In this document: piece after piece, positions 19,325 through 33,865 of the stretch
Layout: the number at the start of each line of letters is the position of its first letter
How positions within the stretch are numbered: position 1 is the stretch's first letter
Assembly: GCF_000092205.1 (NCBI RefSeq)
Contig: NC_014216.1
Span: forward strand, 124,001-188,000
From: Desulfurivibrio alkaliphilus AHT 2
GTDB taxonomy: Bacteria; Desulfobacterota; Desulfobulbia; Desulfobulbales; Desulfurivibrionaceae
DNA: 64,000 bases
Reading direction: 5' to 3'
The notes under the pieces: generated by a model
Database searches by the model: none
What the model was told of the DNA's origin: nothing
The model's input: the letters and a program-made list of their open reading frames with translations, nothing else
Translations under genes and position numbers: made by a program

Positions 19325-19434
19325 GGAAAACGTTCAGCAGTGCCGCAGATTGCGGCAAGCGGACCGGCGCCGCGTACCCCAGGTACGCAAGCCGGGCCGA
19401 TCGCCGCAAGGTGCGGTGCTGCTGGACGTTTTCC
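19325..19434. repeat. Hairpin repeat element, copy 1
   Basis: Arms of about 32 bases (GGAAAACGTTCAGCAGTGCC.. and its near complement) enclose a second stem (CCGGC/GCCGG) and a tip GCGTAC-CCCAG-GTACGC. It occupies most of the gap between two glutamate synthase genes and touches the upstream stop codon. The tip and 3' arm are shared with copy 2 at 52213-52319. Confidence 0.85.
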
Positions 19435-21089
19435 TAGCAGACGTAGCTGATTGATAAACGATCGGCGATGGCCTGGTCGCCTACCCCCAGGCCGTCGGAC
19501 ATGCCGATGGGCAACTGGGTGCTGCGCCCCATGGGGGCGAAGATCTTTTTCAGCTCCACCTCCGCTGTCTTGAACACGTCCACCACCCGTTCGGCCACCC
19601 GGTCGGCGTCCAGCCGCCGGTACAGGCGGGGGTCCTGGGTGGTGATGCCGCGGGGGCAGCGGCCCAGGTTGCAGAGGTTGCAGCGGTTGCGTTCATCGCC
19701 GTAACACTCCGCCGCCGCCTGCATGATGTACTTGCCGATATCCACCCCGGAGGCGCCCAGCAGGATCAGGGAGGCGGCGTTGGCCGCCAGATTGGCCTCC
19801 TTGCCCACCCCGCCGGCGGCAAAGAGCGGCAACTCGTTCTGCTTACCGGATTTAACCAGCTCCAGATAGCAATCCCGCAGGTTACTGGCAATGGGGTGGC
19901 CCATCTTGTCCATCGACACGTTGTAGGCCGCGCCGGTGGCGCCGTCCTCGCCGTCGATGGTCAGCGCCGCCGCGTAAGGGTTGCGGGCCAGGTTGTTGAG
20001 CACCGCCAGGGCCGTCTTGGTGCCGGAGATTTTCGGGTAGACCGGCACCCTAAAGCCCCAGGCCATGCTCACCGACTGGATCATCTTGGCCACCGCCTCC
20101 TCAATGGAGTACTTGGTTTGATGGGTCGGCGGCGAGGCCAGATCGACGTACATGGGCACCCCGCGGATCTTGGCGATCAACTTGAGCACCTTGTAGGCCA
20201 TCAGCAGGCCGCCATCGCCCGGCTTGGCCCCCTGGCCGTACTTGATCTCGATGGCCGCCGGCTCTTCGATCATCTCCGGCAGGGCGTGGATAATCTCGTC
20301 CCAGCCGAAGTAGCCCGAGGCGATCTGGGGAATAAAATATTTCAGGTAGCGGGACTTGAGCAGCCTGGGCGGCAGGCCCCCTTCGCCGGAGCACATCACC
20401 ACCGGGATATTTTCCACTTCGTTCAGATAGGCTACCCCCATGGCCAGCCCTTCCCACATGGGCGGGGAGAGCGCGCCGATGGACATGCCGCCGATGCGAA
20501 TGGGAAAGATTTCCCGCACCGGCGGGATGAAACCGCCGGGGGCAAGCTGCAGCAACTCGCCGTCGCGCTGTATGGGAAGCTGTTCGGCGGGCAGGATGCG
20601 GCCCATCAGGGTGCGGATGTGAAATTCGTGCCGGCCGGCATCCAGCGACGGGTCGGTGAGCATGGAGATCCGGGTGAATTTCAGCTTGTCCAGGGTGGAG
20701 GTGGCCGGATCGTTGCGCCGCCCGCCCCGGGCGTAAGGAACGCCGCCCCGGTTTTTGTGAAAGAGAAATTTGTGGTTGGGGTTGTACTCCGGCATGATGG
20801 CCATGTTGGGGCAGACCAGGCTGCAGGTGCCGCACCCCACGCAATGGCGGTCGATATCGTTGACCTGGCGGATCACCTGGCTGACCCGCCGGATGGTGCG
20901 GGGCAGCGGGGTAGAGCCTTCGGAATCGACCAAACGCCGGGCCATCACCGAGGCCTCGATGGCCCGGGTAGGGCAGACCGCGGTGCAGCGGCCGCAGCGG
21001 CTGCAGCGATCCTCGCGCCAGCGGATAATAAAGGGAAACTCCAGCAGGGTCAGTTCGGAGTTGTGATCGAGCCGTTGAGCTGATTCCAT
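19434..21089 (-). CDS. Glutamate synthase, FMN/central domain with two N-terminal ferredoxin clusters
   Basis: The 551-residue protein starts at 21089 behind AGGAGG and overlaps the upstream gene by 40 bases. Two 4Fe-4S motifs occupy the N-terminus (CSRCGRCTAVCP, CVGCGTCSLVCP). The FMN-binding barrel shows MSIGALSPP, the IEIKYGQGAKPGDGG region, ISGTKTA, IDGEDGATGAA and the 3Fe-4S-type Cys cluster CNLCNLGRCP. This is the archaeal-type split organisation of glutamate synthase, in which amidotransferase, FMN and GXGXG parts are separate polypeptides. It condenses 2-oxoglutarate with ammonia channelled from the amidotransferase subunit. Confidence 0.93.
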   Translation of the reverse strand: MESAQRLDHNSELTLLEFPFIIRWREDRCSRCGRCTAVCPTRAIEASVMARRLVDSEGSTPLPRTIRRVSQVIRQVNDIDRHCVGCGTCSLVCPNMAIMPEYNPNHKFLFHKNRGGVPYARGGRRNDPATSTLDKLKFTRISMLTDPSLDAGRHEFHIRTLMGRILPAEQLPIQRDGELLQLAPGGFIPPVREIFPIRIGGMSIGALSPPMWEGLAMGVAYLNEVENIPVVMCSGEGGLPPRLLKSRYLKYFIPQIASGYFGWDEIIHALPEMIEEPAAIEIKYGQGAKPGDGGLLMAYKVLKLIAKIRGVPMYVDLASPPTHQTKYSIEEAVAKMIQSVSMAWGFRVPVYPKISGTKTALAVLNNLARNPYAAALTIDGEDGATGAAYNVSMDKMGHPIASNLRDCYLELVKSGKQNELPLFAAGGVGKEANLAANAASLILLGASGVDIGKYIMQAAAECYGDERNRCNLCNLGRCPRGITTQDPRLYRRLDADRVAERVVDVFKTAEVELKKIFAPMGRSTQLPIGMSDGLGVGDQAIADRLSISYVC

Positions 21090-22183
21090 ACCTTAACCTC
21101 CTGCGCACCGGGGGGGATGATCACCATATCGGCGCGCATGGGAATTATATCGTTTTCACGCCGGCGCTGGGGCAGCACTTGCTCCAGGCCGCACTCTTCA
21201 CTCATCAGGCCGTATTTGCCGGGAACGCCGCCGACAATGCCGGGCCGCAATTTCTTAGAATCCTGGGTTAAAAAGATGGTGCCGTCGGGCAGGAAACCGA
21301 TGATGCAGTTGGGCCCGTCGATGCATAACTGGCGCAGGGAACGCTTCAGCAGCCCCAGCACCTGGCCATCTTGGCGCCCCGCCAGTTCACCGTCCTGGAT
21401 GGGGGTGATGACATCCTTATAGTAAGTCAGGGGGTATTTAAGCTGATGGTGTACGTAATGCAGGGTATGACAAAAAACCTCGGAGTCGGAACTGTAGCCG
21501 GTATAGCCCTCCACCTCGCGGCCGGTGAGGTAATCCCGGTTGGGGATAAAGGCGGTGTTCTCGCCGTTGGTCATGGTGCAGTAGCCCTGCAGGAAGAAGG
21601 GGTGGCAGGCGTAGAGCTGGATGGCGTAATTGGTGTTCTGCCGCCCCTGGGCCAGGATCACCTTGGCGGTAAGGGGGTGGGTGTCGAAGCCGAAAAAGAG
21701 CCCCACCTCCAGCGGGTCGCCCACTTCCTTCAAGGTGATGACATCGGGCCAGAAGGAGAAAACATAGAGGGAGTCGTCACCGGCCCCCTGGCGGCGCAGC
21801 TCCAGGCGGGTGCGGGTGAGCAGCTCCTCTTTTTCCGCCTGGGGCCGGTCCAGGTAATGATCCGGGTACTGGTAGGCGGTGGCCAGGTAGTGGCCCCGCT
21901 TTTTGACGTTGATCCCCGGCCCCTCCTTAATCCGCGGCTCCCACATGAACTTGACCTTGAAGCCCAGCGATTCCATGTAGTCGTCGATCTTGCGGCGCCC
22001 GGCATCGGTGCAGATGCCGGACAAAATGGGGTATTCCTTGAGATGCTCAAATTCGCCGCCCAGGTTCTGCAAGGTCACGCCCAGGCCCGAGCCGTCATGG
22101 CCCTCCTTCATGGTGTCCAGGGCCAGGATGTTCTCCATGACGGAAAAATATTCGCCGGCGGCGATGGCGCTTAAGCGGCACAT
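21050..22183 (-). CDS. Glutamate synthase amidotransferase subunit (class II)
   Basis: The 377-residue protein starts MCRLSAIAAG; the Cys at position 2 becomes the N-terminal nucleophile after Met removal. Internal segments DGSGLGVTLQNLGG, LYACHPFF and GYSSDSEVF fit the Ntn amidotransferase fold of glutamate synthase. It hydrolyses glutamine and passes ammonia to the FMN subunit encoded immediately downstream, whose start lies inside this gene. CAGGAG precedes the start. It follows the PEP-synthase-like gene after 15 bases. Confidence 0.92.
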   Translation of the reverse strand: MCRLSAIAAGEYFSVMENILALDTMKEGHDGSGLGVTLQNLGGEFEHLKEYPILSGICTDAGRRKIDDYMESLGFKVKFMWEPRIKEGPGINVKKRGHYLATAYQYPDHYLDRPQAEKEELLTRTRLELRRQGAGDDSLYVFSFWPDVITLKEVGDPLEVGLFFGFDTHPLTAKVILAQGRQNTNYAIQLYACHPFFLQGYCTMTNGENTAFIPNRDYLTGREVEGYTGYSSDSEVFCHTLHYVHHQLKYPLTYYKDVITPIQDGELAGRQDGQVLGLLKRSLRQLCIDGPNCIIGFLPDGTIFLTQDSKKLRPGIVGGVPGKYGLMSEECGLEQVLPQRRRENDIIPMRADMVIIPPGAQEVKVWNQLNGSITTPN

Positions 22184-22198
22184 GGGTTACTCCTGCAA

Positions 22199-24874
22199 TC
22201 ATGGAACATTGTCGAAATCCTCTTTGCCTGCGGGAACGCGGTAGAGCTGGTAACTCTGCCCCACGATGTCGGCGGCCAGCACCAGCTCGTCACGGGAAAA
22301 ATCCACCACCGTGATGATCTCGGCCAGGGCGCGGTACTCCGGCTCGGGCACCAGGTCGAGGTAGCGGTTGCGAAAACCGGCCAGCAGTTCCCGGTTGAGT
22401 TCGCTGCCCTCTTTGCCGGGGTAGAAGGCCAGGTACATGATGTCGAATTCCACCAGGTCGTTGAAAAAATGGGTACCCAGCGAGACGTCGGGGATCAGCC
22501 CTTCGTGCATGGCAACCACTTCAATAACACAGGCGGCCTGGCAAATCTCGGAAAAGGTGACCGGAATCCCCAGCGACACGGTGGTGGTGCCCCAGCGTCC
22601 GGGGCCGACGAGCACCGCCGGCAGCTCTTCCGGGGTGACTTTCATGATCTTGCCGATGGCCCGGGCCGCCAGATGCTTCTGGCTCACCGGCAGGGCGCCG
22701 TAGTGGTCCGGCGAAACCAGCACCAGGCGGCGGGGGTTCAGGGCCCGGCTGCGGCCGATCACCGTGCCCTGGCGGGCGGCCAGCAGCACCTGCTTGTCTT
22801 TATCTTCGGCGAAATCCAGGCTCACCTCTTCACTTTTGCGGACTTCAAAGGGGCGGCATTGGACCAGGTTGATCCGGTAGTTGGCCGCCGGGTCGCAGGC
22901 CATCACCTCTTCCCCCCGGCTATCCTGGGAGGCGGCCAGGCTGCGGCAGCCTTCCTCGCCGGTGAAATTCAGGGTGAACTCGATATCCACCGGGTACTGG
23001 TAGGCGCTGTCCAGGGTGCCGAGCAGCTTTTGCATGTGCGCCACAAAAGGGGTGTTTTTGAACAACCCGTTGAAGCTGATGTAAGGCGCGTTGGTCTGGG
23101 GATCCTGGGAAGCGGCCAGGCGCAACTCCTGGGGGGGGCTGTATTTGGCGATTTCGTCAAAGTCCACCGGCAGCAAGCGGTTGGCGGTAAGATCAATGGC
23201 GTCCACCCGTTTCTGGGCGAACTTGCGCAACTCGTCAATGCTCGACTCCGGCCGCTTGTCCGGGGCGCTCAGGGCGGCGATGCGGGTGTAGTCGTCGTCG
23301 GCCCGATCCACCGCCCGGGTGCCCATGCCGTAAACAATGCGGATTAAGCCGGATTCGGGCTTGATCTCCGGGTGCCAGGCGTAAGGGTTGTAAGAGTAAC
23401 CAACCCCGCCCACGGCGGGAAAAAAGTAATTGCCGTGCAGATCGCCGCTTACCCGCTGGATCAGCAGCGACATCTGTTCGTCTTTGTCCAAAATCCCCAT
23501 CTGCTCCCGGTAGTGCAGGGCCTTTTCGCTCAGGGTGGAGGCGTAGACCAGCTTGATGGCGGTGAGCAGATTCTCCAGCCGCCGCTGGCTGGAACCCTGG
23601 TTGGGGCAGAAGACCGACTCGTACTTGCCGGAAAAGGCGTTGCCGTAGTTGTCTTCCAGCAGGCTTGAGGAGCGGACGATGATCGGCGACTGGCCGAAGT
23701 AGTCCAGCATGTCGGAAAGTTTTCTGACGATATCCTCGGGGAAATGGCCGGTTAAGATCACCCGTCGGGCGTACTCGGCCACCCCCAGCAGAGTCTCGGT
23801 GTCCTTTTGCTGACGGCGGATCCACCAGCAGCCGTTGATCACCATGTAGGTGTAAAAGACATCGGAGCCGACGTAAAAGGAGTCATGCACCTCCACCACG
23901 TCTCTCAACTCCGGCGCGTCTTTTTGCAAAATGGCCCGGGAGAGCAGCATGCCGGTGGCCTTGCCGCCGATCAGGCCGGTGCCGATCATCCGCTTGCCAA
24001 TCTCCAGCAGGTTTTCGATCTCCAGGTAACGGGCGGCCAGCTCCTGCATTCGCTCACTGCGGGTGACCACCATTTCCAGCAGGCGCCGCAGGTGACGTTG
24101 CCGGGTTTCCGGGTCGATTTCAACTTCCCTGCTTTGTTGCACCGCCAGGGCCGCCTCCTGGAAATAGCGGTTCCAGCGGTCCCGCTCCTCAAAGGCGTGG
24201 TCGGTGCTGTGAAAGGGGGTGAAGGCCAGGATCTCGGAGTTCAGCGCGCTGTTGGTCACCGGCACGAACTCGTTCTCCCGCATGGCGTGCAGCATGTACA
24301 TGGTGGCGGAGTAACGCTGCTGAGCCTTGAGGGGGTGGACGTAAATATTGTCCCGGCTCTTGTAGATATCAAAAATCACCTGGGCTGTTTCATGCACCGG
24401 GGTCAGGGCGCTGTATGAGTGCTGGTCCCGCAGCAGGGCAAAAAAGGCCAGGGCCTCCATGTCCAGCAGATAGGGGCAGGTTAGCATGAAGAAGTTGCCC
24501 AGCATCCGGTCGCTGTACCAGGCGTTGGCCAAGTCGCTTAATGAATCGAAGACGTAGTAGCCGCCCCGGCCGTGTTGCTTGATGGTCTCGTGAATCTGGG
24601 TGATGAAGGGTTCGAAACCCTCTTCGGGGTCGGGGTGATGAATTTCGGCGGCGGGGAATTCTTCGGGGTCCAGCAGGGGAGGGTGGGAGGCGTAGCGAAA
24701 ATATACCAGGCGCTGGTTTTTGAGATCGGCGAACTTGGCGTAACGTTGTACGAAATAGCGGTAGTCGTCGATCTCCCGGACCTGCCAGACAATATTATCC
24801 CCCGGCATCACCCCTTTGATGACGCGGTCCAGACCCCGGATACCGGTGGATAGATGGCTGTAATTGTATGACAT
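22199..24874 (-). CDS. Degenerate KaiC/RecA-like domain fused to PEP-synthase-type nucleotide-binding domain, 891 aa
   Basis: Residues 8-32 (STGIRGLDRVIKGVMPGD then NIVWQV) match the opening of KaiC-type ATPases, but the Walker A loop that should follow is replaced by VREIDDYRYF. A Walker B-like YYVFDSLSDL is kept at 106-115. From about 290 the protein matches the PEP/pyruvate-binding domain of PPDK and PEP synthase: LIGGKATGM (301-309) and IIVRSSSLLEDN (398-409). The phosphohistidine and PEP-barrel domains are absent. It cannot be a complete PEP synthase. Position inside the gdhA-glutamate synthase operon suggests carbon/nitrogen sensing or phosphotransfer; that is inference. Confidence 0.85.
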   Translation of the reverse strand: MSYNYSHLSTGIRGLDRVIKGVMPGDNIVWQVREIDDYRYFVQRYAKFADLKNQRLVYFRYASHPPLLDPEEFPAAEIHHPDPEEGFEPFITQIHETIKQHGRGGYYVFDSLSDLANAWYSDRMLGNFFMLTCPYLLDMEALAFFALLRDQHSYSALTPVHETAQVIFDIYKSRDNIYVHPLKAQQRYSATMYMLHAMRENEFVPVTNSALNSEILAFTPFHSTDHAFEERDRWNRYFQEAALAVQQSREVEIDPETRQRHLRRLLEMVVTRSERMQELAARYLEIENLLEIGKRMIGTGLIGGKATGMLLSRAILQKDAPELRDVVEVHDSFYVGSDVFYTYMVINGCWWIRRQQKDTETLLGVAEYARRVILTGHFPEDIVRKLSDMLDYFGQSPIIVRSSSLLEDNYGNAFSGKYESVFCPNQGSSQRRLENLLTAIKLVYASTLSEKALHYREQMGILDKDEQMSLLIQRVSGDLHGNYFFPAVGGVGYSYNPYAWHPEIKPESGLIRIVYGMGTRAVDRADDDYTRIAALSAPDKRPESSIDELRKFAQKRVDAIDLTANRLLPVDFDEIAKYSPPQELRLAASQDPQTNAPYISFNGLFKNTPFVAHMQKLLGTLDSAYQYPVDIEFTLNFTGEEGCRSLAASQDSRGEEVMACDPAANYRINLVQCRPFEVRKSEEVSLDFAEDKDKQVLLAARQGTVIGRSRALNPRRLVLVSPDHYGALPVSQKHLAARAIGKIMKVTPEELPAVLVGPGRWGTTTVSLGIPVTFSEICQAACVIEVVAMHEGLIPDVSLGTHFFNDLVEFDIMYLAFYPGKEGSELNRELLAGFRNRYLDLVPEPEYRALAEIITVVDFSRDELVLAADIVGQSYQLYRVPAGKEDFDNVP

Positions 24875-24909
24875 TTAAAACATGTCCAAAAGGACCGGGC
24901 GGCAAGGCG

Positions 24910-24932
24910 GCCCGGCGGCAAATCCGCCGGGC
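24910..24932 (-). other. Intercistronic hairpin between gdhA and the KaiC/PPDK-like gene
   Basis: GCCCGGCGG and CCGCCGGGC form a perfect 9-bp stem around a 5-base loop, with no T-run after it. It may act as an mRNA stabiliser or weak attenuator in the operon. Confidence 0.5.
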
Positions 24933-24959
24933 AACCCGCAACCATTTACATAACTCCGA

Positions 24960-26294
24960 TCAAATAACACCCTGCTCGATCATCGCATCGGCCACCTTGA
25001 CAAAGCCGGCGATGTTGGCGCCCTTGACGTAATTGACATAGTCGCCTTCTTTGCCGAACTTGTAGCAGGATTCGTGGATGCCTTCCATGATCTGCTTGAG
25101 CCGGCCTTCCACTTCGTCCCGGGTCCAGGAAAGCTTGAGGCTGTTCTGGCTCATCTCCAGGCCGCTGGTGGCCACCCCGCCGGCGTTGGCCGCCTTGCCG
25201 GGGCCGTACATGATCCTGGCCTTCTGGAAAACCCGCACCGCGTCGCTGGTGGAGGGCATGTTGGCCCCTTCCGAAACGCAGACGCAGCCGTTCTTGACCA
25301 GGGTTTCGGCGTCGTTGGCGTCGATCTCGTTCTGGGTGGCGCTGGGGAAGGCGGCGTCGCAGGGAATCCCCCAGGGGCGCTCGCCGGAGTAGTATTTGCA
25401 GTCGTATTTTTCCGCGTACTCGGAAATCCGGCCCCGCTTGACGTTCTTCAGTTCCATGACGTAGGCCAGCTTGTCGGCGTCGATCCCTGCCGGGTCATGG
25501 ACAAAACCGCCGGAGTCGGAGAGGGTGACGCACTTGCCGCCCAGCTCGTTGACCTTTTCAATGGTGTACTGGGCCACGTTGCCGGAGCCGGAAACCACGC
25601 AGGTTTTGCCGTCCAGGGAGGTGCCCCGCACCTTGAACATCTCCTCGGCGAAGTAAACCGCGCCGTAGCCGGTGGCCTCGGGCCGGATCAGGCTGCCGCC
25701 CCAGTTGCGGCTCTTGCCGGTGAGCACGCCGGTGAATTCATTGGTGATCCGCCGGTACTGGCCGTACATGAAGCCGATCTCGCGGGCGCCGACGCCGATA
25801 TCACCGGCGGGTACGTCGGTTTCGGCCCCGATGTGCTTGCACAGCTCGGTCATGAAGCTCTGGCAGAAGCGCATCACTTCCTGGTCGCTCTTGCCCTTGG
25901 GGTCGAAGTCCGAACCGCCCTTGCCGCCGCCCATGGGCAGGGTGGTGAGGCTGTTCTTGAACACCTGCTCAAAGGCCAGGAATTTCAAAATGCTCAGGTT
26001 AACGCTGGGGTGGAAGCGCAGGCCGCCTTTGTAAGGGCCGATGGCGCTGTTCATCTGGATGCGGATGCCGCGGTTGACCTGGACCTCGCCCCGGTCATCA
26101 ACCCAGGGTACCCGGAAGATGATCACCCGCTCGGGCTCCACCATCCGCTCCAGGATCTTGGCTTCCTGGTACTTGGGGTGCTTGTCGATGAAGGGCATCA
26201 GGGTTTCCACGACCTCCAGTACCGCCTGGTGGAATTCGCTTTCCCCGGGGTTCTTCTCGATGACCTTGTTCATGAACTCGGTGACCTTTTCCAT
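24960..26294 (-). CDS. gdhA: Glutamate dehydrogenase, hexameric NADP type
   Basis: The 444-residue length is typical of NADP-dependent GDH. Motifs include GPYKGGLRFHPSV, the catalytic lysine region LPMGGGKGGSDFDPKG, and PAGDIGVGAREIG. A Rossmann fingerprint VVSGSGNVAQYT and the segment GPGKAANAGGVATSGLEM complete the family. It aminates 2-oxoglutarate with free ammonia. It appears to be the first gene of a minus-strand operon leading into glutamate synthase, an unusual coupling of the high- and low-ammonia routes. The start at 26294 has GGAGGG upstream. Confidence 0.96.
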   Translation of the reverse strand: MEKVTEFMNKVIEKNPGESEFHQAVLEVVETLMPFIDKHPKYQEAKILERMVEPERVIIFRVPWVDDRGEVQVNRGIRIQMNSAIGPYKGGLRFHPSVNLSILKFLAFEQVFKNSLTTLPMGGGKGGSDFDPKGKSDQEVMRFCQSFMTELCKHIGAETDVPAGDIGVGAREIGFMYGQYRRITNEFTGVLTGKSRNWGGSLIRPEATGYGAVYFAEEMFKVRGTSLDGKTCVVSGSGNVAQYTIEKVNELGGKCVTLSDSGGFVHDPAGIDADKLAYVMELKNVKRGRISEYAEKYDCKYYSGERPWGIPCDAAFPSATQNEIDANDAETLVKNGCVCVSEGANMPSTSDAVRVFQKARIMYGPGKAANAGGVATSGLEMSQNSLKLSWTRDEVEGRLKQIMEGIHESCYKFGKEGDYVNYVKGANIAGFVKVADAMIEQGVI

Positions 26295-26601
26295 TCGCGT
26301 ACTTCCCTCCAGAATTTAGAATTTTTGATGACCACCGAACCCGGTGCCCAAATATCTTGCAGATCGTCGGCCTGCAGATCAGCAACGGCGCCAGCGGCAG
26401 TAGCGGATTGCCCCGGTCCTGTGTTGAGATTAGAGCGAAAAAAAACACCGAAGCCCCGGAAAACTGCGGCGGATGAATTTACCAGTTTTTTCGGTTCAGT
26501 GCAAATTATTATCGACAAAAATAGCCGCTGCCGTGGTGCGCAGTGGTAGGGGGGAGAGGGTTGCATAAATGTAAAACCGCCCCCAGGTTACGTGGCTTTG
26601 A

Positions 26602-26615
26602 TTACAAAATTGTAA
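26602..26615. promoter_or_regulatory. Palindromic operator-like site
   Basis: TTACAA and TTGTAA are separated by AA, about 110 bases upstream of the sigma-54-type promoter of glnK. Position and symmetry suit a dimeric regulator; identity unknown. Confidence 0.35.
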
Positions 26616-26714
26616 TAACCGTCAAGGGTGAAACCGCTTTCCCGGATTAGCCGGCAAGCTGTTTTTGTTGTTAAAGCAATGGCATAAATGGCAACATTGC
26701 TTGCTGCTCCATCT

Positions 26715-27173
<459 letters not shown>

Positions 27174-27228
27174 GGCCGGCGACCATAACCTGAACCGTTT
27201 TTAACCATATTTTTAAAAGGAGTACGTC

Positions 27229-28548
27229 ATGAAAAGCAAATCAATCATCGCGGCCGCCGTCTGCGGCCTGGTTGCCACCGCCCTGCCGGTCGCCGGATGG
27301 GCCGGTGAGCAGGCGGTAAGCGGTGGGGATGCCATCTTTACCGCCAACAACACCTGGATGCTGGTGGCCACCTTTTTGGTCTTTTTGATGCACCTGGGCT
27401 TTGCCTCCCTTGAGGCGGGGATGACCCGGGCCAAGAACACCGTCAACATCCTTTATAAAAACACCGCCATTATCGCCATCGGCATCCTTACCTATGCCGT
27501 GGTGGGTTTCAACCTGATGTACCCGGAGAGCTTCGCTTTGGGCTCCTGGTTTGGTTTTGCCGGCTTCGGGGTGGGAACTTCCCCGGAAGATCTGAAAATT
27601 CTTGAAGACGGGGTGGGGGTCTATACCTACTGGACCGATTTCATCTTCCAGGCGATGTTTGCCGCCACCGCCGCCACCATTGTTTCCGGGGCGGTGGCCG
27701 AGCGGATCAAGCTGCCGAGTTTCCTGGTCTTTACCACCCTTTACGTGGCCTTTGTCTACCCCTGGCTGGGCAGTTGGCAGTGGGGCGGCGGCTGGCTGGA
27801 TGAGATGGGCTTTTATGACTTTGCCGGTTCCACCCTGGTGCACTCGGTGGGCGGCTGGGCGGCCCTGGCCGGGGTAATTGTACTGGGCCCGCGCCTGGGT
27901 AAATATATCGATGGCAAGATCCGGCCCATTCCCGGCCACAATATGCCGCTGGCCACCATCGGGGTCTTTCTCCTCTGGCTGGGCTGGTTTGGCTTCAACG
28001 GTGGTTCGGTGCTCTCCGCCGACCCAGGTCTGGTCTCCTTTGTCTTTGTCACCACGGCCCTGGCCGCTGCCGCCGGGGTGGTCAGCGCCATGTTCGCCTC
28101 CTGGACGGTGACCAAAAAGCCCGATCTTACCATGGCTTTGAACGGCGCCCTGGCCGGCCTGGTGGGGATCACCGCCGGGGCCGACGTGGTGAGCGTGGGG
28201 GCGGCGGTAATCATCGGCCTGGTGGCCGGGACCCTGGTGGTCTTTTCGATCATGGCCCTGGACCGGTTAAAACTGGACGACCCGGTGGGCGCCATCTCGG
28301 TGCACCTTACCTGTGGCATCTGGGGCACCCTGGCAGTAGGCATCTTCGCCGCCGAGTTCTCGCTGATGATCCAGTTGCTGGGGGTAGTGGCCTACGGGGT
28401 AGTGGCCTTCGGCGCCGCCATGGTGCTCTTCTACGCCATCAAAAGCAGCATCGGGCTGCGGGTGGATGAGGAAGAAGAGCGGCTGGGGCTGGATATCACC
28501 GAGCACGGCATGGAGGCCTATGCCGGCTTTGAGATGAACACCAAGTAA
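27229..28548 (+). CDS. amtB: Ammonium transporter
   Basis: The 439-residue protein has a cleavable signal peptide (about 1-23, ending GWAGE) followed by about 11 membrane helices. The twin pore histidines lie in TLVHSVGGWAAL and SVHLTCGIWG. ASLEAGMTRAKNTVNI and WLGWFGFNGGS are further Amt signatures. AAGGAG precedes the start, 55 bases downstream of glnK. It conducts ammonium across the inner membrane under GlnK control. Confidence 0.96.
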   Translation: MKSKSIIAAAVCGLVATALPVAGWAGEQAVSGGDAIFTANNTWMLVATFLVFLMHLGFASLEAGMTRAKNTVNILYKNTAIIAIGILTYAVVGFNLMYPESFALGSWFGFAGFGVGTSPEDLKILEDGVGVYTYWTDFIFQAMFAATAATIVSGAVAERIKLPSFLVFTTLYVAFVYPWLGSWQWGGGWLDEMGFYDFAGSTLVHSVGGWAALAGVIVLGPRLGKYIDGKIRPIPGHNMPLATIGVFLLWLGWFGFNGGSVLSADPGLVSFVFVTTALAAAAGVVSAMFASWTVTKKPDLTMALNGALAGLVGITAGADVVSVGAAVIIGLVAGTLVVFSIMALDRLKLDDPVGAISVHLTCGIWGTLAVGIFAAEFSLMIQLLGVVAYGVVAFGAAMVLFYAIKSSIGLRVDEEEERLGLDITEHGMEAYAGFEMNTK

Positions 28549-28560
28549 ACCGGCGGATTC

Positions 28561-28621
28561 ACCCGAACGGCACCGCAGCCAGCCCATGGAGACAGTGGGC
28601 TGGCTGCGGTGCCGTTCGGGT
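28561..28621. repeat. Perfect 26-bp inverted repeat downstream of amtB
   Basis: Positions 28561-28586 and 28596-28621 are exact reverse complements around a 9-base loop. No T-run follows on the plus strand, so it is not a standard intrinsic terminator. It starts 12 bases after the amtB stop. Confidence 0.9.
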
Positions 28622-28645
28622 GGGTTGCCCAAAGGACTTCAAGCT

Positions 28646-29365
28646 ATGAACTTTCTGGTTTTGCAGCATGCTCCCTGGGAGGGGCCGGGGCAATTTCTGC
28701 TGGCGGCGGCCCGCAAGCTGAAAATCAGGTTGCAGGTCACCAGGGTCTGGCAGGAGGCGATTCCCGATCCGTTGAACTTTGACGCCCTGCTGATTCTGGG
28801 GGGTGGCGCCAATGTCGACCAGGAGAAGCAGTTTCCCTACCTGCGGGAAGAAAAGGAAGTGATTCGCCGGGTGGTGGCTGCCGATCTGCCTTGTTTAGGA
28901 ATTTGCCTGGGGCATCAGCTGCTGGCCGAGGCCCTGGGCGCCCGGGTGGGTCCCAATTTCTGCAGCAGCGTGGGGTTTGTCGAGGGCTACCTGACCAGTC
29001 ACGGCCGGCAGCACCCCGCCTTTGCCGGGATGAAAAGCCCGCTGCCGCTCTTCAAGTGGCACGGTTACACGGTGCTGGAACCGTTGCCGGGTCATTTGCA
29101 GGTGTTGATGACCTCGGATCACTGCCAGGTGGAGGCGTTGTCGGTGGCCGGGCGGCCCCATCTGCTGGGGTTGCAGTCCGACAACCACGCCGCCGACCCC
29201 CGCGATGTCGGTCTATGGCTGGAGCAGGACCGTCAGTGGCTGGCCTCGCTCCGTGATCAGAGGGTTGACCCCTCCTGGGTGCTGGCCCAGAGTCGACGCT
29301 ACCGGGCGGCAATCGCCGCCGATTTCCAGCGCCTGTTGGGTAATTATTTGCGTATGCTGGTGTAA
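28646..29365 (+). CDS. GMP-synthase-like class I amidotransferase domain protein, 239 aa
   Basis: The start at 28646 has AAAGGAC upstream. The fold begins MNFLVLQHAPWEGPG and has LILGGGANV and the nucleophile elbow CLGICLGHQLL. The segment that should read QFHPE is instead LQSDNHAAD, so the catalytic His and Glu are not in their usual place. It may be inactive as a glutaminase or act on another substrate. Stand-alone proteins of this type are annotated loosely as GMP synthase glutamine amidotransferase. Its place after amtB suggests glutamine or gamma-glutamyl metabolism. Confidence 0.82.
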   Translation: MNFLVLQHAPWEGPGQFLLAAARKLKIRLQVTRVWQEAIPDPLNFDALLILGGGANVDQEKQFPYLREEKEVIRRVVAADLPCLGICLGHQLLAEALGARVGPNFCSSVGFVEGYLTSHGRQHPAFAGMKSPLPLFKWHGYTVLEPLPGHLQVLMTSDHCQVEALSVAGRPHLLGLQSDNHAADPRDVGLWLEQDRQWLASLRDQRVDPSWVLAQSRRYRAAIAADFQRLLGNYLRMLV

Positions 29366-29409: not shown

Positions 29410-32406
29410 TTAAGACTGAGAAACCAGGGGGTCGGGGGTATCAACGCAGAGCGAGATCTTGTCCAGAATCGTCGAAATCTGTTCCAGTTCGTCTTCAATT
29501 TTGGCCATGTTGCCGTCCCCCTCCTGCCAGCACTGGGAGATGATCCGGGCCCCGGCGCTGATTCGCAGGGCGGCGGTTTTTTTGCCAGGTATTTCAGTTG
29601 GCTGGCCAATGTGGCAGCACTGGGCGGCCAGCTCCTTTTCGGCGGCCGGGATTCCCGGCTCATCCCCGATGTCGCAGTTGAGCTTCTCGTACAGGGTGCG
29701 GGCCTCTTCCGGGGTCAGGTAACTGCCGTCGTGGTGGCGCACCAAAAAAGGAAAAATGGTGCGTCGGATGGAGAGTTCGTCGCCCAGCATGTCGGTTCTG
29801 GCAAAGCAGGGGTGCGAGGGTTCGACCAGGAGATCCAGCAGCGGATGGGCGGCAATGCGGCTCATTACCTCTTCGCAGAACCGTCCCAGGCCCTGCAGTC
29901 GCTGTTCTTTGGGCACCAGGTAATAGCGCCGGGCCTCATCCAGGGCCGCCTGCCAGCGCAGGTACATGCCGGTGTTGGGGGGATGCTGGGCTTCGGGGAG
30001 GCATTCCTGCCAGCTTCCCAGGTCGGCCTGGGGAATGTAGTCCGCCAGGCCCCGGGGCAATGAATGCCGGGAGCAGTCCAGGCGGTCGGCAAAACTTTTG
30101 GGGAACACCGCCACCCCGCTGAAGGTAGGGCCGGTGAAAAACTTGGAGCCGGTGAGCAGCAGGATGTCGCCTTTCTGAATATGGTCGCGCAGGTCTTCGG
30201 CGTCCAGCCTTAACTGGCAGGCATCGACAATAACCTGAACCGACTCGCCGAAATGGCGGCGAATGCGGTCCAGCATGGGGGGGGAGGGAGCCCAACTGCC
30301 CATCCGGGACTGGTCCATGGCGTGCAAAATCACCCGCCGGCCGGCGGCCACCGTGTCGCTTACCCCTTGCCAGATCATTTCATCCACCCGCTCCAGGTGG
30401 TGTAGCTCACCCTGCTCGTCGCGGAAGGGGATACCGAGAAAAGCCACCTCCGGCATTCCTTCCAGCCGGCTGCCTTTTTCCACCTCGACTCCTAAGCAGG
30501 TGGTTTCGTCGAAGTGGCAGCCGGTGACCGCCAGTTCGGTGCCGCTGCCGGTTTCATCGGAGCCGCAGACGATACTGGTCCACGGTGCATCCGGCCTGGT
30601 GGCCACAATGGCGGCCACGGCCTGCATCTGCGAGTCGGTGCCCGACGGAGACAGGTGCAAATCGCCCTCCAGATCGTGAAAGCCGAAGGTGGTGGCGATG
30701 GCATCGGCCAGTTCCTGGCTGTAGCGGCGCAGGGGGGCCAAGGAGCCGGCCAGGGCGCAGTCGTGCAGCAGGCGCTGGCGGCACTGCTCGGCTTCGGCGT
30801 ATGCCTGGGATGAAACCGAAGTGGCGGTGGAGGCGGAAAAGGTAATCGCTTCGTCGCGCGGATAAGGCAGCGAGCCGTAGCGGTTGAAGCCGGTTTCCTG
30901 GTCCAGTTCCAGGCGGGTATCGCCCCCTTTAACCAGGTGCCAGCGGGTGGGTTTCAGCAGCGGCTTGAGGGTGGTGTCGAACAGCCGTCCCAACTCCAGG
31001 ACGTGATCGATCAGATCGTGCAGCTCTTTTGCTTCGGTGCGGTGGTTGACCAGGGCCACCCGGATCGCCGCCCGGTCGTTGAGGGTGGTGCTGGAGGGGG
31101 CGGCCAGCCCGCGCAGTTGCAGCTGGGTTACAATGGCCCGGTTAAGGGCGTCGCCGACGCCGGGATCGGTGGCCTGATAACGGAAACAGACAATGTTCAG
31201 GGTTACCGGGGCCAGGCGCTCCAGTTGCGGCTCGCGGTCGACCCGCTGGGCCAGTTCCCGGGCCAGGCGGCAGTGCTTGCGGACCACCGCCGCCAGTCGT
31301 TCGGTGCCCAGCGCCTGGAAGGTGAACCAGACTTTCAGGGCCAGGAAGCTGCGGGACAGCTCGGGGCCCAGTTCGCAGAACCAGGGGGCGCCGCCGGCCA
31401 GTCCCAGGCTGGCCGGGGCCAGATATTCCTTGCGTTCGGAAAAGGTGGCCTGGTGTAATTCGCCGTCTTTGACCAGCAGGCCGCCCACGGAATAGGGAAC
31501 CTGGAACCACTTGTGAAAATCGAAGGCAACGGAGTCGGCCTGCGCCATAGGGGCCAGGGCCTCCCGGTACTCTTCCAGCAGGATCGCCGTGCCGCCGAAG
31601 GCGGCGTCGATATGCAACCACAGTTGCTCCTGGTCGCATATGGCCTTGATGGCGGTCAGGTCGTCGATGGCCCCGGTGTTGACCGTACCCGCCGTGGCAA
31701 TTACACAGAAGGGGGTCAGGCCTTGTTGGCGGTCGGCGCTGATTTGCGCCGCCAGCGCTCCGGTATCCATGGTGAAGTCGTTGTTAACCGGGATCGAGCG
31801 CAAAAACTCCTCGCCCAGGCCCAGCAGTTGGAAGGCTTTCAGGACCGAGTTGTGGCTCTGGGCCGAGGCATAGCCCACCAGGGGTGAATCCTGTCTTTGC
31901 AGCCCCCGCGCCTTGACCTCATCCCCCGCCGCCTGCTGGCGGGCCACCGCCAGGGCCAGCAGGGTGGCCATGGAGGTGCCGGTGGTGAGAATCCCCGAGG
32001 AGGAGAGGGGAAAGCTGAACAACTGGCGGCACCATTGCAGCACCTGGCGTTCGATATACACCGCCACATGGTCGCGCCCACCCAGGTTGCTGTTCAGCAG
32101 GGCGGCGCACATCTCGCCCAAAGCCCCGTATAGGTTGCCCCCGCCGTGAACCCAGCCGAAGAAGCTTGGGTGGGTGTTGCCGTTGCCGTAGGGCAGCATC
32201 TGGTCGCGAAATTGTCCCACCAGCTCTGCAACGGGGCGGCCCTGGCGCGGCAAGGGGGTGCGGAAGGAATCTTTGACCTCTTCGGGGCAGGGGCGCCAGA
32301 CTGGTTTTTCGGACAAAGTTTGGTAATGCTCGATGCCGGCCTGCATGGCCTGTTGCCAGGCGGCTTCCAGCTCCGCCCAACTGTCGGGATCAAGATTGTC
32401 GGTCAT
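29410..32406 (-). CDS. Fusion of two PLP-dependent enzyme domains (group II decarboxylase plus second fold-type I domain), 998 aa
   Basis: Residues 1-480 match group II aromatic amino acid/glutamate decarboxylases: NGNTHPSFFGWV, GILTTGTSMATLLAL, IATAGTVNTGAIDD, HIDAAFGG with D267, and the PLP lysine K299 in FDFHKWFQVP. Residues about 505-960 form a second fold-type I domain: SPSGTDSQMQAVAA (PLP phosphate cup), VIVDACQLRL with D728, and a probable PLP lysine K755 in LTGSKFFTGPTFSG. The extreme C-terminus (about 960-998) is a short acidic helix. A single uninterrupted frame covers both. Substrates are unknown. It converges on the amidotransferase-like gene, 44 bases away. Confidence 0.88.
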   Translation of the reverse strand: MTDNLDPDSWAELEAAWQQAMQAGIEHYQTLSEKPVWRPCPEEVKDSFRTPLPRQGRPVAELVGQFRDQMLPYGNGNTHPSFFGWVHGGGNLYGALGEMCAALLNSNLGGRDHVAVYIERQVLQWCRQLFSFPLSSSGILTTGTSMATLLALAVARQQAAGDEVKARGLQRQDSPLVGYASAQSHNSVLKAFQLLGLGEEFLRSIPVNNDFTMDTGALAAQISADRQQGLTPFCVIATAGTVNTGAIDDLTAIKAICDQEQLWLHIDAAFGGTAILLEEYREALAPMAQADSVAFDFHKWFQVPYSVGGLLVKDGELHQATFSERKEYLAPASLGLAGGAPWFCELGPELSRSFLALKVWFTFQALGTERLAAVVRKHCRLARELAQRVDREPQLERLAPVTLNIVCFRYQATDPGVGDALNRAIVTQLQLRGLAAPSSTTLNDRAAIRVALVNHRTEAKELHDLIDHVLELGRLFDTTLKPLLKPTRWHLVKGGDTRLELDQETGFNRYGSLPYPRDEAITFSASTATSVSSQAYAEAEQCRQRLLHDCALAGSLAPLRRYSQELADAIATTFGFHDLEGDLHLSPSGTDSQMQAVAAIVATRPDAPWTSIVCGSDETGSGTELAVTGCHFDETTCLGVEVEKGSRLEGMPEVAFLGIPFRDEQGELHHLERVDEMIWQGVSDTVAAGRRVILHAMDQSRMGSWAPSPPMLDRIRRHFGESVQVIVDACQLRLDAEDLRDHIQKGDILLLTGSKFFTGPTFSGVAVFPKSFADRLDCSRHSLPRGLADYIPQADLGSWQECLPEAQHPPNTGMYLRWQAALDEARRYYLVPKEQRLQGLGRFCEEVMSRIAAHPLLDLLVEPSHPCFARTDMLGDELSIRRTIFPFLVRHHDGSYLTPEEARTLYEKLNCDIGDEPGIPAAEKELAAQCCHIGQPTEIPGKKTAALRISAGARIISQCWQEGDGNMAKIEDELEQISTILDKISLCVDTPDPLVSQS

Positions 32407-32566: not shown

Positions 32567-33865
32567 TTAAATTTCTTCAATCCGGCTGCGGAACCAGCGG
32601 ATCAGGGCTTCTTTTTTTTCGCCGATGTCGATTTCGTAGATGTCGCGGGGGAAGAGCAGGTCGGCCACCCCGGAGTCGAAGATGCGCCGCACCTCGTATT
32701 CGTCGTGGGAAACCCCCCGCTGGTAGATGTAATTGAGGAAAGAGCGGTTGGTGTGAACGATGAACTCCACCCGCATACCGCCCATGCGGGCGAAAAATTT
32801 GTACATCGCGGTGCCGCTGGAGCTGCCCGGGGTGCTGCTCCGGTAGCCACCGCCGGCCAGGGTGTCGCTGAGGTCTTCCAGGGTCATCAGGGAGCCGGCT
32901 CGGGCGGCGCTGGCGGTGAGGTGTTGCTGAAAGATTTTGACCTCCATGGGGGAATCCACCACCGCCATCAGGCCCAGTTCGTCATCCACCGCCACCGCCG
33001 GGTTTTCCTCCCCTTTGCGCAGCAGTTTGAGCACCTTGGCCTCGGGCGGTTTTTTACGGATGCTGACGTAAACCGGAACCTCCTGCTCCCCCCAGGGAAA
33101 GCAGCGGCGCTTGATCATGGTGATTTTTTCATGCGGTCCGGTTTGGGGCGGCAGCTCCTGCCGGCGTTTGATGGCTACTTCCTGGCAGGCAAAGCTCTCC
33201 GGGTGGTGGTGACTGTGCAGATAGACGATGTCCAGCTCACCGATTTTGGCCTTGCGGCTCCAGACCTCATCGTTGAGAAAGTCCAGAAAACGGAGGAATT
33301 TCTGTTCCACTTCGGTTTCCCGCTCCCGCTGGTCGATGGCGCCGGCCAGGCTCATCAGGATCAGCTTGCGCTTGGCCTCGAAACGGGCCTTGCGGTGGTA
33401 GCGGTCGTCGAAGAGGATCAGCAGCAGATCGATGGGGCTGCGGGTGGAGTCGATCTCGTTGGTCATCTCGATGTAGGAGGCGTAATTGGCCAGCACCCGG
33501 TTACGCAGGTAGTTGATGACCCCGTCGGCAATCCTGGAATAGGAGTTGATGTGGGCGATGACCTCCCGCTCGCTGCCGTCCAGCCCGAACATGTTGCCCA
33601 GCAGCCGGTAAGCGCGTTTTTCCACCACCCGCCGGCGGGCAGCATCCTGCAGCAGCGCCGGGATCTCGGCAAAGGAGCGGACCTGCAGCAACTCGAAAAG
33701 CTGGCTGCGGGTAACCCGGTATTTGCTGAGCAGCCCCCGTTGTTTCAGTTCGGTGAAACGGCGCCGGGAGGAGCCTGCCAGCAGGTGCTCCTCCCGGACG
33801 CTTTTTTCCACCCGAAACGGGCCCTCCTGGTCAAGGAGGGCAAAGATGTTTCTGCTGCGGTCCAT
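32567..33865 (-). CDS. Uncharacterised protein with possible RelA/SpoT-like C-terminal domain, 432 aa
   Basis: The N-terminal 250 residues are mostly helical and charged, with a His cluster YLHSHHHPESF at about 215-225. From about 265 the order SIRKKPPEAKVLKLLRKG, then DDELGLMAVVDS, then MRVEFIVHTNRSF and the segment GVSHDEYEVRR recalls RelA/SpoT nucleotidyltransferases (basic strand, D-LG-R-VVD, EVQIRT, GVAAHW-YK). The match is weak and several catalytic residues are altered, so an alarmone role is only a hypothesis. The outer-membrane protein gene lies 13 bases upstream and probably shares its transcript. Confidence 0.75.
   Translation of the reverse strand: MDRSRNIFALLDQEGPFRVEKSVREEHLLAGSSRRRFTELKQRGLLSKYRVTRSQLFELLQVRSFAEIPALLQDAARRRVVEKRAYRLLGNMFGLDGSEREVIAHINSYSRIADGVINYLRNRVLANYASYIEMTNEIDSTRSPIDLLLILFDDRYHRKARFEAKRKLILMSLAGAIDQRERETEVEQKFLRFLDFLNDEVWSRKAKIGELDIVYLHSHHHPESFACQEVAIKRRQELPPQTGPHEKITMIKRRCFPWGEQEVPVYVSIRKKPPEAKVLKLLRKGEENPAVAVDDELGLMAVVDSPMEVKIFQQHLTASAARAGSLMTLEDLSDTLAGGGYRSSTPGSSSGTAMYKFFARMGGMRVEFIVHTNRSFLNYIYQRGVSHDEYEVRRIFDSGVADLLFPRDIYEIDIGEKKEALIRWFRSRIEEI

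Follow-up and report, generated by a model that had tools for sequence, protein, structure and literature searches.

A 998-residue protein joining a group II PLP decarboxylase to a divergent, putatively class-V-like PLP domain in Desulfurivibrio alkaliphilus AHT 2

The window analyzed here is a stretch of 64,000 nucleotides from the genome of D. alkaliphilus AHT 2, a single contig of 3,097,763 bases. On its minus strand, one uninterrupted open reading frame of 998 codons runs from ATG to stop (32406..29410), and it is the sole Pyridoxal_deC gene of the host genome. An earlier note on this DNA, which gave no strand, had described a single 998-codon frame with two full fold-type I PLP sites, and the frame and all of the residues it named are indeed present. 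The gene, its active-site residues and the adjoining genes are as follows, in window coordinates.

29410..32406, minus strand: gene for the 998-aa fusion (group II PLP decarboxylase, then class-V-like PLP domain)
30973..32406, minus strand: residues 1-478, N-terminal half, group II decarboxylase (Pyridoxal_deC at 41-410)
31852..31854, minus strand: H185, counterpart of the group II PLP-stacking His (alignments to solved relatives)
31606..31608, minus strand: D267 of HIDAAFGG (WLHIDAAFG), pyridine-nitrogen binder by alignment
31510..31512, minus strand: K299 of DFHKW (FDFHKWFQV), decarboxylase PLP Schiff-base Lys by alignment
29413..30972, minus strand: residues 479-998, C-terminal half, predicted fold-type I class-V-like PLP domain (AF2, Foldseek, hhalign, motifs)
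30625..30651, minus strand: phosphate-cup motif SPSGTDSQM (586-594), its SGTD invariant in 19/19
30541..30555, minus strand: ETGSG, residues 618-622 (E, G and G invariant)
30223..30225, minus strand: D728 of VDACQ (QVIVDACQL), putative pyridine-nitrogen binder, with Q731 after it (compare class V VDAVQ)
30142..30144, minus strand: K755 of TGSKFFTGP (LTGSKFFTG), putative second PLP Schiff-base Lys (invariant)
29563..29565, minus strand: R948 of ALRISAGA, counterpart of the class V carboxylate-binding Arg (19/19 family members)
24960-26294: glutamate dehydrogenase
26766-27173: PII protein
27229-28548: ammonium transporter
28586-29365: glutamine amidotransferase

The last four genes belong to a block of nitrogen-assimilation genes that adjoins the fusion (19434-29365) and also includes glutamate-synthase-like genes. 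In another carrier (L020, below), a different gene lies downstream of the fusion, so the link to nitrogen genes may be due to chance. On the other side, a 432-aa protein without a Pfam or NCBIfam match is encoded upstream of the fusion (32567-33865, minus strand), and it is also found upstream in two further carriers (L002 and L020).

The N-terminal half (N-half) is an ordinary group II decarboxylase, as judged from its sequence. It matches Pfam Pyridoxal_deC (PF00282) with an E-value of 3.7e-65 over residues 41-410, scoring 220.5 bits against a curated cut-off of 27 and spanning model positions 1-374 of 375, and the PLP-stacking His, the Asp and the Schiff-base Lys are all retained (H185, D267, K299), in agreement with the earlier assignment of the first domain and its two named residues; the stacking role of H185 is one that we take from known group II decarboxylase structures. 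The nearest solved relative is 4obu (2.8e-66), followed by 7xin and DfoJ (5o5c), with which the N-half shares the family match, HIDAAFGG, DFHKW and His185, whereas the chains of these decarboxylases have about 480-530 residues and lack a second PLP domain. In alignments, the N-half lacks Tyr where the loop of animal and plant decarboxylases has its catalytic one, but so do the bacterial relatives 4obu, 7xin and 4rit, so this position does not bear on an aldehyde-synthase reading of the N-half, which was considered but not retained. No NCBIfam equivalog cut-off was reached, the best model being that of DABA decarboxylase (NF052646; 190.6 against 900 bits). A stand-alone relative with 51% identity occurs in a genome of the same order (G055), and relatives in Ensifer show about 38-39% identity.

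The C-terminal half (C-half) was searched against Pfam and structure databases, as the earlier note had proposed, and its sequence matched no Pfam, NCBIfam or PDB entry. Its AF2 model, built from 59 sequences, reached a pLDDT of 81 and a pTM of 0.86, while the model of the full-length fusion was too poor to use for domain packing or channeling (pLDDT 66, pTM 0.63). Foldseek aligned the C-half model with 931 solved chains at E<=0.001, and the 50 matches listed were all fold-type I PLP enzymes, at 10-14% identity and with no single nearest subfamily. The C-half is thus confidently predicted to adopt the PLP fold-type I fold, and the second domain described in the earlier note, with a phosphate cup, D728 and K755 of its own, is upheld by the residues present and by this predicted fold.

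Several observations suggest which class of fold-type I enzymes the C-half resembles. D728, Q731, K755 and R948 are invariant in 19/19 diverse members of the family defined by the C-half (hereafter the C-family), and the C-half contains the class V motif set VDAxQ, S/H-K..GP and (L/V)R(I/L)S. The R948 motif, ALRIS, resembles the LRIS and VRLS of the host's own class V proteins (L110, L111), and by eye, ETGSG appears to occupy the place of the class V EH..(V)P region. When the C-half family was compared by hhalign with five profiles, built mostly with proteins of the host's own genome, class V came out best (P 0.031 over 220 columns, with the motifs aligned in sequence). Class III followed at 0.18, class I/II at 0.26 and decarboxylases at 0.68, and an unrelated control gave 0.79. 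Taken alone, this ranking weakly suggests a likeness to class V. Class V folds such as 8iry, 4isy, 5f9s and 6mfb are similar to the C-half model (TM to target 0.61-0.66). The likeness to PF00266 and to the NifS-IscS enzymes therein lies in VDACQ, S-K..GP and LRIS occurring in the same order, together with the weak profile match, but the C-half has Ser-Lys where class V has His-Lys, shares 10-14% identity, and does not match PF00266 (aminotransferase class V) at its cut-off. The motifs point to a very divergent class-V-like enzyme of the NifS/aminotransferase-V type, in which R948 would presumably bind the substrate alpha-carboxylate, as in IscS-type enzymes. A cysteine desulfurase was considered and rejected, as there was no match at cut-off level and the candidate catalytic Cys is not universal; the conserved C931 of the fusion and flavobacterial branch is missing in the G133/G098 branch, which leaves the family without a universal catalytic Cys at this position.

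The fusion recurs outside the host, in L002, L020 and L021. A congener (G002) has a fusion protein of equal length, 998 aa, that is 90% identical to the host's, and dN/dS between the two is 0.11 overall, 0.145 in the N-half, 0.076 in the C-half and 0.46 in the short linker. The values for the halves indicate purifying selection on both, and the higher value of the linker fits a loose connection between two functional domains. An unbroken fusion is also present in Desulfurivibrio sp. AMeS2 (L020), whose two halves match the query at identities equal to those of the G002 halves; AMeS2 and G002 may therefore be one genome. The gammaproteobacterium Ectothiorhodospira marina DSM 241 carries a version of 1012 aa whose N-half is 56% and whose C-half is 50% identical. 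These unbroken copies rule out a hidden stop or frameshift between two genes, which the earlier note had named as a way in which its reading could fail. Both pieces are present in G001, on separate contigs, and the fusion is absent from two other congeners, one of which is rated 100% complete. Horizontal transfer is likely, given the patchy distribution and the occurrence in two genera of different phyla. A phage origin was rejected, relatives being absent from viral contigs and phage records.

The C-family is widespread and nameless in standard databases, with neither a Pfam or NCBIfam model nor a solved structure. One scan of genome contigs returned at least 307 relatives, of which 80 were kept. 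A C-family match that lacks the decarboxylase half occurs in four genomes of the host's phylum, none of them close relatives. Flavobacteriaceae and a few other bacteria have the C-family domain behind another N-terminal domain, of about 172 residues and without a Pfam match, so that the whole protein has about 690. Such fusions to an unrelated 172-residue domain were seen at L040:8485-10557 and at about 75 similar loci (L022-L099), and a segment of the domain gives the impression of a degenerate metallopeptidase motif, which it loosely recalls. The flavobacterial neighborhoods are syntenic at the genus level only and lack a decarboxylase, except in one Polaribacter MAG, which indicates that the C-half needs none. 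A cysteine-synthase-like neighbor was rejected as an operon partner there because the gene is convergent, and an unrelated Polaribacter decarboxylase was left out of the joint alignment.

On rhizobial plasmids, as in S. meliloti and R. jaguaris, the C-family gene stands alone directly behind NRPS genes or overlaps them, and a phosphopantetheinyl transferase is encoded nearby; Rhizobium sp. 007 has an annotated NRPS gene further upstream. At the loci that follow NRPS genes (L100:14022-15557, L101:11977-13473, L104:14022-15557), the C-family gene is followed by an uncharacterized gene (about 220-249 aa), to which two of the loci add a phosphopantetheinyl transferase. This apparently represents an undescribed peptide cluster on conjugative plasmids. 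Among the four genomes of the host's phylum mentioned above, an ATP-grasp-like gene lies upstream of the C-family gene in each of the three neighborhoods read (G098, G133, G344), and an ATP-grasp ligase-like gene with a TPR-like N-terminus adjoins it at L019:8149-9861, L014:2155-3438, L013 and L016. From its sequence, the Rhizobium version of this ligase gives the impression of an extra C-terminal stretch resembling a Cys protease; a search of the host genome for the ATP-grasp partner gave no match. The position of the C-family beside NRPS and ATP-grasp genes fits an amino-acid-handling enzyme. In Neorhizobium (L102:7837-11419), the C-family gene directly follows genes for a D-aminopeptidase and a D-amino-acid aminotransferase, a context that hints at action on D-amino acids or at epimerase activity.

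The pairing of the two families is not confined to the fusion. Two Rhizobium species, R. tumorigenes and R. rhododendri, have the gene order TPR/ATP-grasp gene, C-family gene and decarboxylase, the last two overlapping, and the decarboxylase is of the same type as the N-half. In the tree of the C-family, the C-halves of the fusions are monophyletic (99/98) and stand beside a Bacteroidota branch, apart from the branch of the Rhizobium operon, so the pairing exists in two different forms. The fusion N-halves are likewise monophyletic (100/100) in the decarboxylase tree, which leaves the placement of the Rhizobium decarboxylases relative to them undecided. The two families were possibly linked on two occasions, as far as these trees and gene orders suggest.

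We tentatively favor a bifunctional enzyme whose halves are linked by an unusual alpha-amino acid: the C-half would make or modify it, and the N-half would then convert it to an amine by decarboxylation. At its own PLP site, the C-half would produce or alter the alpha-amino acid by transamination, epimerization or side-chain lyase chemistry; the N-half would strip the alpha-carboxylate from this product, or from a closely related one, and the resulting amine would be destined for a specialized metabolite or for a cell-surface or osmotic compound, with the joining of both halves keeping the intermediate local. We infer the activity of both sites, the reaction order and any channeling, along with an amino-acid substrate for the C-half, the latter from the invariance of R948 and from the family members in peptide-building clusters without a decarboxylase. 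It is rather doubtful, though conceivable, that the C-half founds an unnamed PLP family with a chemistry of its own, present in sulfur bacteria and Flavobacteriaceae as well as in rhizobial peptide clusters, and that in the fusion the amino acid it produces goes straight to the site of the decarboxylase.

Other readings of the fusion are unlikely to differing degrees. The two halves may not act consecutively, working instead on different substrates and being joined for one pathway or for shared assembly or regulation, which we consider unlikely; the C-family often occurs alone, or fused to the 172-aa domain in Flavobacteriaceae, yet the overlapping neighbor genes of the same two families in Rhizobium suggest a closer link. 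The earlier note had suggested decarboxylation of a standard amino acid by the N-half followed by chemistry on the amine, with the C-half transaminating or otherwise converting it, for example to an aldehyde. This order would agree with the N-to-C arrangement of two intact sites and with the aromatic amino acid decarboxylases among the nearest solved relatives of the N-half, but it now appears distinctly unlikely, as an Arg of the carboxylate-binding type (R948) is invariant in the C-family, the C-family occurs in NRPS and ATP-grasp clusters without a decarboxylase, and the C-type gene leads in the Rhizobium operon. Decarboxylation as the last step would fit these patterns better than decarboxylation first. 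It is more improbable still that only one half is catalytic and the other plays a structural or regulatory part, like the N-terminal half of the glycine decarboxylase P-protein. The P-protein is also a decarboxylating chain of about 1000 residues with two fold-type I halves, and it has only one PLP site; a sequence relation to the 998-aa fusion was not seen, and against an idle half stand the Lys, Asp and phosphate cup kept in both halves, the invariance of K755, D728, Q731 and R948 (19/19) and the low dN/dS of both. A spurious joining of two genes in assembly or sequencing, for which nothing speaks except that group II decarboxylases usually occur as proteins of their own, is ruled out by the same fusion in separate assemblies from two genera and two phyla.

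Group II decarboxylases form a textbook family, as do class V enzymes. The earlier note treated the fusion as unfamiliar, which holds for this particular combination but not for the joining of a decarboxylase to a second PLP enzyme, known from the DABA aminotransferase/decarboxylase of Vibrio (PMC10914755, PMC3969229). There, VC1625 combines DABA aminotransferase and DABA decarboxylase in the norspermidine pathway (PMC10914755, PMC3969229), the aminotransferase making DABA and the decarboxylase converting it to 1,3-diaminopropane (PMC3969229). Both fusions join a group II PLP decarboxylase to a second fold-type I PLP enzyme, and elsewhere the two are encoded by separate adjacent genes. In Vibrio, a class III aminotransferase is the first of the two domains, whereas here the decarboxylase comes first, the partner matches no aminotransferase family, and the N-half falls far below the DABA decarboxylase cut-off (190.6 of 900 bits on NF052646); PF00202 (class III aminotransferase) has no match anywhere in the 998-aa protein. 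A double-PLP decarboxylase fusion is therefore not unprecedented, and the present one differs in partner, order and source. By analogy, the Vibrio sequence of making and then decarboxylating would support the same order in the D. alkaliphilus protein. Type I PLP domains, including Pyridoxal_deC, are also embedded in NRPS/PKS chains (PMC3870968), which are alike in carrying PLP domains within larger chains, and the rhizobial C-family adjoins NRPS genes; here, by contrast, two PLP domains are joined without a carrier or adenylation domain.

We found no paper on this fusion or on the C-family in a literature search that covered few subscription journals. The 998-aa fusion would add a second double-PLP decarboxylase architecture beside that of Vibrio, and its most interesting part is the partner family, which has no name, profile or structure. 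The fusion and the separate operon together offer a first handle on the role of the C-family, in that the amine or amino acid linking the two activities can now be sought. In Ensifer adhaerens (L105:5835-8443), a cysteine-synthase-like PLP gene is followed by a related group II decarboxylase, and this pair may be another make-then-decarboxylate pairing, a candidate two-gene route to an amine.
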